Assembly (NCBI GenBank): GCA_947647615.1
Contig: CANSKS010000012.1
Location: 1 to 58,571 of the forward strand
DNA length: 58,571 bases
From: an uncultured Neglectibacter sp.
GTDB taxonomy: Bacteria; Bacillota; Clostridia; Oscillospirales; Acutalibacteraceae
Reading direction: 5' to 3'
In this document: in pieces, positions 28,927 to 32,775 of the stretch
How positions within the stretch are numbered: the stretch's first letter is position 1
How the letters are laid out: each line of letters opens with the position of its first letter
Translations under genes and position numbers: made by a program
Notes under the pieces: generated by a model
What the model was told of the DNA's origin: nothing
Seen by the model: only the letters and a program-made list of their open reading frames with translations
Database searches by the model: none

Positions 28927-28963
28927 GCCCAAAAGCCCTTTTCGGAGAAAATTCCGGGATGGC

Positions 28964-28998
28964 AGACCGGTAAAAGGCGCATTGACTTTTACCGGTCT
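28964..28998. promoter_or_regulatory. 12-bp inverted repeat over the methyltransferase -35 (operator candidate)
   Basis: AGACCGGTAAAA (28964-28975) and TTTTACCGGTCT (28987-28998) are perfect inverted copies 11 bases apart. The right arm covers the last base of the -35 and most of the spacer; the -35 otherwise lies in the loop. A bound dimer would block RNA polymerase. No T-run follows on either strand, so a terminator role is unlikely. Confidence 0.65.
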
Positions 28999-29010
28999 GA
29001 GTGGTATTAT
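28982..29010 (+). promoter_or_regulatory. Promoter of the FokI-like modification/restriction genes
   Basis: TTGACT (28982-28987), 17-base spacer, extended -10 TGGTATTAT (hexamer 29005-29010). Transcription should begin near 29017, so the coding start must be the ATG at 29042 rather than upstream codons. Confidence 0.8.
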
Positions 29011-29041
29011 CCCTTATAAGGATGTTTTGGGATGTGGAATT

Positions 29042-30982
29042 ATGAGATTCATTGGCAGCAAGGCCCATTTGTTGGAAAAGATTGATCAAGTGATTTTAGA
29101 GCACGCCACAGGAAGGGAAACCATATTTTGCGATATTTTTTCCGGTACCGGCGTGGTGGCCCGGTATTTTAAGCCCAGATACGAAATTCATTCCAACGAT
29201 ATCCTGTACTTTTCTTATGTCATACAAAAAGCTACGGTGGAAAACAATAAAAAGCCCGTTTTCTTGAAGCTGAGAGACAGGGGGATATCTGATCCCTTCC
29301 GCTTTTTGGAAGAGGCGGAGATTCCTCCAATGGATAAGGGGCACCTTTTTATCACGGAGCACTATTCCCCTCACGAGCACTGCAAAAGGATGTATTTGTC
29401 CCACAAAAACGCGCTGCGGGCAGATTTTATTCGGAACACCTTAGACGCCTGGAAAAAACAATGCCTTGTAACAGAGCTGGAATATTACTACCTTCTTGCC
29501 GGGCTCATTGAAGCAATCCCTTCCGTTTCCAATATCACGGGCACCTACGGTGCTTACTTGAAGCATTGGGACAAGCGTGCCTTAAAGGATTTGGAAATGG
29601 TGCGCCTGGATGTGGTAGATAACAAAAGGAAAAACCGGTGCTACCAACAGGATGCCAACAAACTCATTAGAGAATTGGAGGGCGATATTTTATATTTGGA
29701 CCCTCCTTACAATACCCGGCAGTACGCCCCAAATTATCACTTGTTGGAGACCATATCCAAATATGACTGCCCGGAGGTGCATGGAGTTACCGGCATGAGG
29801 CCTTATGAAGACGCCAAATCTGACTTTTGCGTCAAAAGCAAGGTCTCGGAGGCATTGGAAGACCTGGTGGCAAAGGCAAAATTCCGCCACATCGTTCTGA
29901 GCTACAGCACCGACGGCCTCATGGCTTCCCATGAGATCGAACAAATCTTGAAGCGTCATGGTATAGAAAAAAGCTACCAGCGGTATGACATTCCCTACCG
30001 GCAATACAAGAGCAAAAAACCCGGGCAGTCCCAATGCCTGTACGAATATCTTTTTTATGTAGAAAAGAGGCTTCCCAGGAAGAGCCTTCTGGTACCCAAA
30101 GGCCCTGTTAAAGAGCCGTGCCCTATTGTGGATCCCAAAAAATATATTAAAAGCCCCATGAATTACATAGGCGGGAAGTACAAGCTGCTGCCCCAGCTTC
30201 TCCCCCTGTTCCCAAAAAATATCAATACCTTCGTCGACCTGTTTTCGGGAGGCTGCAATGTGGCCATTAACGTAACCGCTAAAAAGATTCTCTGCAACGA
30301 TATTAACTGGAAAGTCGTAGAGCTGTTTGAGGCCTTTCGCAGCATGGAGCTTCCCGAGCTGCTCTGTCAAATCAAATCCCGCATCGCGGAATACGGGCTT
30401 TCGAAAGAAAATGAGGAAGGGTTCCAGCGATTCCGGGAGTTTTACAATAAAACTCGGGACCCCATTGACCTTTACACCTTGACCTGTTATTCCTTTAACT
30501 ATCAGTTCCGGTTCAACAACAGCCTGGAATATAACAATCCCTTCGGAAGGGCCCGGAGCCAATTTTCAGAAAACATGGAACGCAACCTCATCGCCTTTGT
30601 CACGCGGCTCAAAAGCATGAACGTGGAATTTACCAGTAAAGATTTTACAGAAATTCCCTTAGAAAAATTCAATTCCCACGATTTCTTCTATTGCGACCCT
30701 CCTTACCTTATTACAACAGGAACCTACAACGATGGAAGCCGTGGGTTTAAAGATTGGAAGGCAAGCCAGGAACACGCTCTGTACCAATATTTGGACCACG
30801 CGAACCAGCGGGGAATTCGGTTTGCCCTATCGAACGTCATGGAGCACAAGGGAAAGCAAAACAGCATTTTGCTGGAATGGGCAAAGAAGTACAAGCTCGT
30901 CCCGCTGGATTACACCTATTCCAACTCCAGCTACAATACCAAGAGAGGGGAAAGCAAGGAAGTTTTGGTAATAAACTACTAA
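29042..30982 (+). CDS. FokI-like type IIS DNA adenine methyltransferase with two catalytic domains
   Basis: The 646-residue protein is a tandem of two D12-class N6-adenine methyltransferases. The first has MRFIGSKAHLLEKI (1-14), the SAM-binding DIFSGTG (31-37) and DPPYN (220-224). The second has SPMNYIGGKYKLLPQL (371-386), DLFSGGCN (399-406) and CDPPY (551-555). M.FokI has this same duplication and nearly the same length, because the asymmetric site GGATG needs a separate enzyme unit for each strand. The gene is followed 14 bases later by a FokI-like nuclease in the same order as in the FokI system. The start is weakly supported by a ribosome site but fits the promoter. It would protect host DNA from the cognate nuclease. 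Confidence 0.93.
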   Translation: MRFIGSKAHLLEKIDQVILEHATGRETIFCDIFSGTGVVARYFKPRYEIHSNDILYFSYVIQKATVENNKKPVFLKLRDRGISDPFRFLEEAEIPPMDKGHLFITEHYSPHEHCKRMYLSHKNALRADFIRNTLDAWKKQCLVTELEYYYLLAGLIEAIPSVSNITGTYGAYLKHWDKRALKDLEMVRLDVVDNKRKNRCYQQDANKLIRELEGDILYLDPPYNTRQYAPNYHLLETISKYDCPEVHGVTGMRPYEDAKSDFCVKSKVSEALEDLVAKAKFRHIVLSYSTDGLMASHEIEQILKRHGIEKSYQRYDIPYRQYKSKKPGQSQCLYEYLFYVEKRLPRKSLLVPKGPVKEPCPIVDPKKYIKSPMNYIGGKYKLLPQLLPLFPKNINTFVDLFSGGCNVAINVTAKKILCNDINWKVVELFEAFRSMELPELLCQIKSRIAEYGLSKENEEGFQRFREFYNKTRDPIDLYTLTCYSFNYQFRFNNSLEYNNPFGRARSQFSENMERNLIAFVTRLKSMNVEFTSKDFTEIPLEKFNSHDFFYCDPPYLITTGTYNDGSRGFKDWKASQEHALYQYLDHANQRGIRFALSNVMEHKGKQNSILLEWAKKYKLVPLDYTYSNSSYNTKRGESKEVLVINY

Positions 30983-30996
30983 TTGCGAGTGCGATT

Positions 30997-32775
30997 ATGA
31001 TTTCTGTTATACCCACCTGCCACACCGTTTTTCGGGCCTTTGGCTGGGTGCAGGACCCCAGCAATTTGCGAAGCCTTTGCGATGTTGTGGCCGTATTCGA
31101 CAACAGTTCGGAAAAGCATCGGGAGCTTGTCTCCCATACCATCCCAAAGCTGGTAGAAGAACGGGATGGACGCGGTGAACTTGTAGACGCTCTGAACACC
31201 CGGCCTGTAAGAATCTCCTATTCCCAGCTGGTGGGCACTGCTTTTACGCCTCGAAGCCATTCCCGCTGTAACGGCATCATTCAAGCGGCGGTAAAGGGGC
31301 AAAAGCGAGATTTTATTGTAGATTGGCCCGCCGATAATTATGTACGCTGGGCCCATTGCTTCGGATTTCTCCAATATGACTATAGCAGCGACACCTTCAC
31401 CATAACCCCCCAGGGATTGCGGCTTACGGCCTTCCGGGAAAAGGGCGAGGCGCTTTCTGCCGGAGAAAAAGAGGTGTTGACAAACGCCGTTTTGGCCTAC
31501 CCTCCGGCTATTCGAATTTTGGGCCTGCTGGCCAAAAGCCAGGAAACGCCCCTTACCAAATTCGAATTGGGGCAGCAGTTGGGCTTTATTGGGGAAGACG
31601 GCTTTACCAACATGCCCCAGAAGCTGCTGATCCGAGCACTAGTGGGGGCACAGCCCAAGGACCGCAACGCTATGAAGGCCGATTGGGAAGGATCTTCCGA
31701 CAAATATTCCCGCATGATCGCCAGTTGGCTGGAAAAGCTGGGTTTGGTAGAGAAAGCGCCCAAAAAGGTTACTGTCACAGTGGCGGGAAACAATTATTCC
31801 GAAACGCTTAACCAGGCGTACCTGATCACCGCCGGCGGCATGACAGCATTGGGAAGAGCGCGCGGGAAAAGCAGGCACAAAAGAATTCCAAAAAATGTAT
31901 GTTGGGAGATGTTGGCCACCAAGGGCTCCGGCCGGGAATATCTGCGTACCCGGCGGGCTTTCCTGCTCAAATATATTTCGGAAAGCAAACGGGCCGTTTC
32001 CCTGGCGGAAATTCAAGCCTATTTAAAAAAGGCTGGGTTGGAAGAAAGTGAAACTACCATCTGCGACGACATCAAGGGCTTGCAAAATATCGGCTTGGAA
32101 ATTTCGGAAATTCAGGGGCGAATTTTGTTCCAGGATGAAATTTCCGATTTTGTAATCCCGTTGCCTCAATCCCTAGCAAGATCCGGTTTGGAAGAAACCA
32201 AAGAGGCGCTGCGGGCCAAACTGATGTATTTGTCTCACGAATACCTTACTTTGCTGGACTTGGCTTACGACAGCCAACAAAACCGGCTGTTCGAAATGAA
32301 GACTCTGGAGCTGCTCACAGAGGAGTGCCGGTATCAAGGACTGCATTTGGGAGGCAGCCGCAAACCCGACGGTATTATTTTCACCTGCGGAAAAGAGGGC
32401 TACGGCGTCATCATTGACACCAAAGCCTATTCCAAAGGCTACAGACTTCCCATTGCCCAAGCCGACGAAATGGAGCGGTACATTGGAGAAAACCAAACCC
32501 GGGATGAAAAGGTCAATCCCAACAAGTGGTGGGAAAATTTCGACAGCGGTATTGAGGATTTCTATTTTCTGTTTGTTTCCGGCCATTTTACCGGGAATTT
32601 TGAGGCACAGCTGGACAGGATAAGCCGAAACAAGGGCATAAGGGGCGGCGCCCTGCCCGTTGTCCAGCTCTTGCTGTGTGCCGAGGCCTACAAGGCTGGG
32701 ACCCTCACCCACGAGGGTATTCGGGACAGGCTGTTTCAAAACAAAGAAGTTTCCCTGTGCAAAGCTTGTCGCTAG
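30997..32775 (+). CDS. FokI-like type IIS restriction endonuclease
   Basis: The 592-residue protein is recognisably homologous to R.FokI along its length (about 580 residues). FGWVQDPSNL is at 15-24, SYPP-like AYPPAIRILGLL at 167-178, WEGSSDKYSRMIASW at 230-244 and the linker side at VCWEMLAT. The cleavage domain starts near 400. Catalytic residues are P457-D458, D474 and K476 (FokI D450, D467, K469). The dimer-interface D490 and R494 correspond to FokI D483 and R487. The recognition half therefore probably reads GGATG and the nuclease half cuts at a distance after dimerising. The FokI NNW motif is ADW here, so specificity could differ. There is no good ribosome site; it is translated downstream of the methyltransferase, which may keep its level low. 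Confidence 0.94.
   Translation: MISVIPTCHTVFRAFGWVQDPSNLRSLCDVVAVFDNSSEKHRELVSHTIPKLVEERDGRGELVDALNTRPVRISYSQLVGTAFTPRSHSRCNGIIQAAVKGQKRDFIVDWPADNYVRWAHCFGFLQYDYSSDTFTITPQGLRLTAFREKGEALSAGEKEVLTNAVLAYPPAIRILGLLAKSQETPLTKFELGQQLGFIGEDGFTNMPQKLLIRALVGAQPKDRNAMKADWEGSSDKYSRMIASWLEKLGLVEKAPKKVTVTVAGNNYSETLNQAYLITAGGMTALGRARGKSRHKRIPKNVCWEMLATKGSGREYLRTRRAFLLKYISESKRAVSLAEIQAYLKKAGLEESETTICDDIKGLQNIGLEISEIQGRILFQDEISDFVIPLPQSLARSGLEETKEALRAKLMYLSHEYLTLLDLAYDSQQNRLFEMKTLELLTEECRYQGLHLGGSRKPDGIIFTCGKEGYGVIIDTKAYSKGYRLPIAQADEMERYIGENQTRDEKVNPNKWWENFDSGIEDFYFLFVSGHFTGNFEAQLDRISRNKGIRGGALPVVQLLLCAEAYKAGTLTHEGIRDRLFQNKEVSLCKACR

Follow-up and report, generated by a model that had tools for sequence, protein, structure and literature searches.

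An apparently complete FokI-type restriction-modification operon in an uncultured Neglectibacter, with a conserved GGATG tandem at its predicted methyltransferase promoter

Introduction

The endonuclease FokI cleaves DNA 9/13 bases downstream of its recognition site, the corresponding distance for StsI being 10/14, and it is from FokI that zinc-finger nucleases and TALENs take their cleavage domain. Passages of a study on Prevotella intermedia assign its FokI-like systems to GGATG/CATCC by REBASE prediction and methylome (PMC5608340), and a report on Streptococcus equi states in one of its passages that CATCC/GGATG is methylated (PMC8754150). Control of restriction-modification systems through their own sites has also been described. 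In sections of one account, methylation of a site in the methyltransferase promoter is the means of control for CfrBI, LlaDII and AhdI, and action of the methyltransferase as its own repressor is a second published route (PMC12707154). The LlaJI promoter, in the relevant passage, contains two of the system's own recognition sites (PMC1459862), and for MhoVII, which acts on GATG/CATC, a promoter region without own sites is described in part of the report (PMC12898733). A paper from 2018 holds a passage in which a recognition site within a strong methyltransferase promoter senses methylation, and cites a 1989 FokI paper among the examples (PMC6237814); on the strength of that passage, self-site control of the FokI methyltransferase has probably already been described. 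A family-wide tandem of sites at fixed spacing was not found in the open-access literature searched.

Here we describe a FokI-like locus in a stretch of 58,571 nucleotides from an uncultured Neglectibacter sp. (GenBank assembly GCA_947647615.1, contig CANSKS010000012.1, positions 1 to 58,571 of the forward strand), referred to below as the window. The source genome is a draft of 94 contigs, and placement of the locus on a Clostridial chromosome is plausible.

Results

The window holds a methyltransferase gene (M) and, 14 bases downstream on the same strand, a nuclease gene (R) (Table 1). Pfam detects two MethyltransfD12 stretches in M, and a type II methyltransferase model of PADLOC matches it from residue 1 to 646; no fused DNA-binding repressor domain was found by Pfam in this protein, which starts at its first D12 domain. 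In R, Pfam detects FokI_D1, FokI_dom_2, FokI_D3 and FokI_cleav_dom, each far over its cut-off, and the FokI chains 1fok_A and 2fok_A match query residues 12-586 with E about 1e-163. The genome as a whole yielded just a single FokI cleavage domain and a single D12 gene, the latter with two domains. A preliminary description of this DNA had claimed a complete FokI-like type IIS system with a duplicated-domain methyltransferase at these coordinates and with this gap; the open reading frames, both full-length, the four FokI domains and the two D12 domains bear this out.

Table 1. Features of the locus, in window coordinates.
Feature	Position	Strand	Basis and remarks
Perfect inverted repeat across the -35 region, arms of 14 bp, loop of 9 nt	28963..28999		Unique in the genome, even when as many as 3 mismatches are allowed
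Sigma-70-like promoter TTGACT-N17-TATTAT ahead of M-R	28982..29010	+	Consensus match only, 10/12; TG before -10
Tandem GGATG-TTTTG-GGATG, two presumed recognition sites at 10-bp period	29020..29034	+	22 nt before M start
M, methyltransferase of M.FokI type, two D12 domains	29042..30982	+	646 aa; ATG at 29042, stop ends at 30982; Pfam; 54% identity with the FokI-strain M
R, FokI-type endonuclease: D1, D2, D3 and cleavage domain	30997..32775	+	592 aa; ATG at 30997, stop ends at 32775; Pfam, alignment to FokI

The comparison with FokI was made by pairwise alignment of R to the solved sequence, in which 274 of 566 aligned residues are identical (48%) and R has three residues fewer before the cleavage domain. 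Identity is 54% in the cleavage domain and 42% in the recognition subdomain D1. R residues D458, D474, K476, D490 and R494 fall on FokI D450, D467, K469, D483 and R487, of which the first three are catalytic and the last two belong to the dimer interface. For the methyltransferase, the reference is the locus of Planomicrobium okeanokoites IFO 12536 (L042), presumably the FokI source strain, in agreement with the presence there of the solved FokI sequence at 574 of 574 residues; this locus likewise has M followed by R. The five residues and the FokI-like gene order had both been named in the preliminary description, and both withstood the alignment with the FokI proteins that it had proposed, at 48% identity for R and 54% for M.

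Relatives of R were collected from several sources. In a scan of a genome-contig collection covering 84,980 species, 92 stretches were confirmed and 80 retained, corresponding to 78 loci, so that the weakest relatives are absent from the set; the closest relative there is an Oscillospiraceae MAG with an R that is 72% identical. A plasmid collection gave 13 records matching R, all below 60% identity, six of which were fetched. Four relatives of R were present in viral contigs and none in a phage collection. A match to the N-terminal half of M accompanies R in 82 of 88 loci and is lacking in six, the contig part being the best 80 of 92. Among these 82, a fused M precedes R in 46, R precedes a fused M in three, the genes converge in 13, one of which has M in separate halves, and diverge in two, separate M halves precede R in 14, and the remaining four have no match to the C-terminal half. 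Four loci from Poribacteria and Zixiibacteriota (L037, L040, L043 and L079) combine a FokI-type R, 44-49% identical, with an M that is related to the N-half alone, since the fetched stretch gave no C-half match. In one near-complete genome (G768), split M genes lie more than 1 Mb from a FokI cleavage domain (L147 and L140). A Staphylococcus haemolyticus plasmid (L007) carries a FokI-like frame of about 310 aa that covers only the first half of the query and adjoins an IS257 transposase, and seven further Staphylococcus plasmid records match the same part of R.

Next to the M promoter, which is recognised by consensus match, lies GGATG, here taken as the site of the system, in a direct repeat that the preliminary description does not mention. 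The pattern GGATG-N5-GGATG is found on the strand of M, 20-34 nt before its start, in 60 of 82 scorable loci, window and FokI included. Counted with the window, 83 loci have an M start, the contig-scan part again being the best 80 of 92; L041, which is kept in that count and among the 64 loci scored as fused, lacks the 5´ end of M, and the denominator for the tandem is therefore 82. That no site base differs among the 60 loci follows from their selection by the pattern; the five spacer bases do differ. Elsewhere in 1.06 Mb the pattern occurs once, within the M gene of L069, and GGATG pairs at the 15 other spacers from 0 to 15 were not found upstream of M. When all repeated 5-mers at spacers 0 to 25 were scored in the 60 bases upstream, GGATG at spacer 5 came first (60/82), followed by its own frame-shifted overlaps and then by pairs present in at most 5 loci. 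Since the set contains near-duplicates (e.g., L087/L088, L003/L061 and L081/L082), we also give the count by cluster: single linkage on M identity sorts the 60 loci into 12 groups at 60% and 31 at 70%. One locus, L018, has a degenerate pair, GAATG-TTCTG-AAATG, upstream of an otherwise fused M, which could represent decay or a shifted specificity.

Two further roles for the tandem were considered and rejected. A genome-wide regulon is not indicated by the six matches in the window's own genome, compared with three for a reversed control pattern; of the five other matches, four lie inside frames of more than 500 codons and one in a 74-codon frame. A leader peptide starting from the ATG of the first GGATG, which in the window would have 7 codons and overlap the M start, is not conserved: across the 60 loci this frame stops after 1-2 codons in 23, has 7 codons in seven and 9-26 codons in 13, and runs without a stop through the examined stretch in 17. 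In viral sequences, a scan with a longer form of the motif plus a start codon gave nine matches, two of them before M.FokI-like genes already in the set; the other seven look like chance.

The tandem of the window starts 10 nt past the last base of the promoter, which would place it just after the transcription start if the latter is about 7 nt past the -10 element. Within 40 nt upstream of the tandem, a promoter matching at least 9 of 12 positions is present in 37 of the 60 loci (shuffled sequences: mean 8.3, maximum 13), and in 36 of these 37 the distance from the end of the -10 element to the tandem is 1-12 nt. No 9/12 promoter was found in 23 of the 60 loci, and in 11 of the 37 the -10 element is only 2 nt away, such that part of the tandem would precede the transcription start; placement with respect to that start therefore varies. 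In the 12 convergent loci with a tandem and the three with R first, it precedes M and not R, and in the two divergent loci, L081 and L082, it lies in the shared intergenic stretch upstream of both genes. Among the 59 other tandem loci, 4 also have inverted repeats, of 11-15 bp and with sequences unlike that of the window, in the last 130 bases before M.

The tandem marks one clade of M. In a phylogeny of 82 M N-halves, built by a quick method that left 24 of its 77 inner branches open, the 60 tandem rows group with the tandem-less L018, L046 and L051, and the other 19 tandem-less rows fall on the opposite side, with a basal support of only 30. Because these 19 loci still have a FokI-like R, a system of the FokI type can do without the tandem. 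It is present in 60 of the 64 loci scored as fused and in none of the 19 others, of which 15 have separate M halves and four lack a C-half match. As a cause of the tandem, however, fusion was rejected: the tree requires a minimum of only three changes of tandem and four of fusion, an independent-pairs test was uninformative, and the fused L069 and L072, both of the other clade, and L139 are without tandem. We therefore regard the tandem as the mark of a clade, its dependence on fusion being unsupported.

When 391 genomes were drawn from across the class, M was matched six more times. Two of these matches repeat loci of the set (L135 to L010 and L136 to L033), L137 and L138 are new and have the tandem, and L139 (fused) and L140 (split) are without it; a phylum-wide draw of 398 genomes at a limit of E 1e-100 returned the window's own genome only. 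In the drafts that carry L138 (G697, 98% complete) and L137 (G632, 99% complete), M is present with its tandem and a search for a FokI cleavage domain gave nothing, which indicates that the tandem goes with M and not with R. In G697, this M, with its tandem, adjoins a GmrSD-type gene (L141, 4674-6767 and 6801-8813).

Of the 148 genomes in the window's kinship group, R was found only in the window's own, from which we conclude that the system is patchy and was probably acquired. The locus is flanked by a divergent two-component block on one side and by a block with cytidylate kinase, ApbE and NusG_II on the other. A clean empty insertion site was not seen among same-genus relatives; in the five of these in which both flanking blocks were found well conserved (G001, G002, G010, G011 and G018), the two-component and cytidylate-kinase blocks are on different contigs. 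The GC profile gave no clear foreign signal. In L062 and L066, M is 59% identical to that of the window and the tandem is present, and R is just 36-37% identical, a disparity that makes exchange of M and R between lineages probable. The M genes of L029/L030 and of L073/L080 are near-identical even though the records are labelled as different phyla, which suggests recent transfer or contaminated MAGs.

Discussion

We consider it likely that the window carries a complete FokI-type IIS operon, specific for GGATG/CATCC, in which M damps expression of its own operon through the tandem at the promoter. Each half of M would methylate the adenine of one strand of GGATG/CATCC, and R would bind GGATG via D1/D2 and cut at a fixed distance downstream by dimerisation of its cleavage domain. 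The two sites, one helical turn apart, would lie near the transcription start of the M promoter, and action of M on them, by methylation with or without binding, may lower expression of the operon once the cell is protected. The clade-wide occurrence of the tandem upstream of M points both to GGATG specificity and to control of the M promoter through the system's own sites, and the GGATG pair is probably a self-regulating switch. Owing to its strict spacing, control in this family should be directly testable by simple reporters.

A bolder version, to which we give a small chance, is that the two-headed M is itself a repressor, its two domains, each the reader of one strand of a single site, clamping the neighbouring sites on the same face of the helix, so that one molecule bridges the tandem and blocks RNA polymerase. 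If true, the 10-bp period would set the distance between the domains like a ruler, and this would be part of the reason why they are fused.

We think it improbable that the tandem is a translation signal only, of Shine-Dalgarno type, with no operator in the DNA. The string AGGATGTGA does resemble the Shine-Dalgarno consensus AGGAGGTGA, and the second GGATG ends 5-9 nt before the start codon in 34 of the 60 loci. Yet the distance to the start codon ranges from 20 to 34 nt while no spacer but 5, among those from 0 to 15, was found upstream of M, and 22 of 23 loci with long leaders have a purine-rich Shine-Dalgarno-like string after the intact tandem, a lenient count as strings of four bases were accepted. 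A silent or inactive, though intact, operon is about equally improbable. The single occurrence of R among the related genomes would fit a recent and possibly disposable acquisition; against this stand two full-length frames with their catalytic motifs and, ahead of them, the tandem and a promoter-like sequence.

For the specificity of the window system we compared nine residues reported as base contacts in the 1997 FokI structure: Q12, N13, R79, Q95, W105, N217, E220, K225 and R228. In an alignment of 80 R sequences, each with a best match of more than 480 residues, 54 rows belong to tandem loci. Seven of the nine positions (Q12, R79, Q95, W105, E220, K225 and R228) are identical in the window; an apparent change of Q95 to K in the pairwise alignment was discarded as a gap artefact, the 80-row alignment giving Q. 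At position 13 the window has D, and the 54 tandem loci divide into 28 with N and 26 with D. At position 217 the window has A, as do 12 of the 54, where S, T, N and Q also occur. The kept contacts are themselves not all invariant in these loci, R79 being G in four and E220 being D in nine. The preliminary description had left open a new specificity or an isoschizomer, pointing to ADWEGSSDKY in place of NNWEGSSDKY. The quoted difference is correct, and because position 217 varies throughout the family we reject it as evidence for a new specificity. A diverged recognition half that reads another sequence, as the lower identity in D1 than in the cleavage domain and the two substitutions might suggest, is in our view very improbable, given the N/D alternation at position 13, the seven retained contacts and the two GGATG sites that the promoter holds in the family arrangement. 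The contact residues and the promoter sites together make GGATG by far the likeliest target, and of the two earlier options it is the isoschizomer that is favoured: judged from sequence, the system is very likely a FokI isoschizomer reading GGATG. By the same token, the promoter tandem offers a sequence-only hint to the specificity of uncharacterised FokI relatives.

That R rather than M acts on the tandem, e.g. by cutting an unprotected promoter, is highly doubtful: R should bind the same sites, and in the divergent loci the tandem is also upstream of R, but tandem and M occur in the two drafts in which no cleavage domain was found, in convergent and R-first loci the tandem stands before M and never before R, and L062 and L066 pair a window-like M and tandem with a distant R.

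In comparison with known systems, the window resembles FokI in the four domains of R and its catalytic and dimer residues, in the fused two-domain M, in the order of the genes and in GGATG-N5-GGATG before M, but only about half of the residues of either protein are shared. With CfrBI, LlaDII, AhdI and LlaJI it has in common own methylation or recognition sites at the M promoter; it differs from them in that the sites are directly repeated at a constant period of 10 bp, immediately past the predicted promoter of an M-R operon of type IIS. The regulatory methyltransferases EcoRII, Ecl18kI and SsoII limit expression of their own gene, as proposed for the window, but passages of the account that covers them ascribe to them a fused DNA-binding repressor domain (PMC12707154), which sets them apart from the window M. 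What is new here is a strikingly conserved and better-defined putative control element in a known kind of system.
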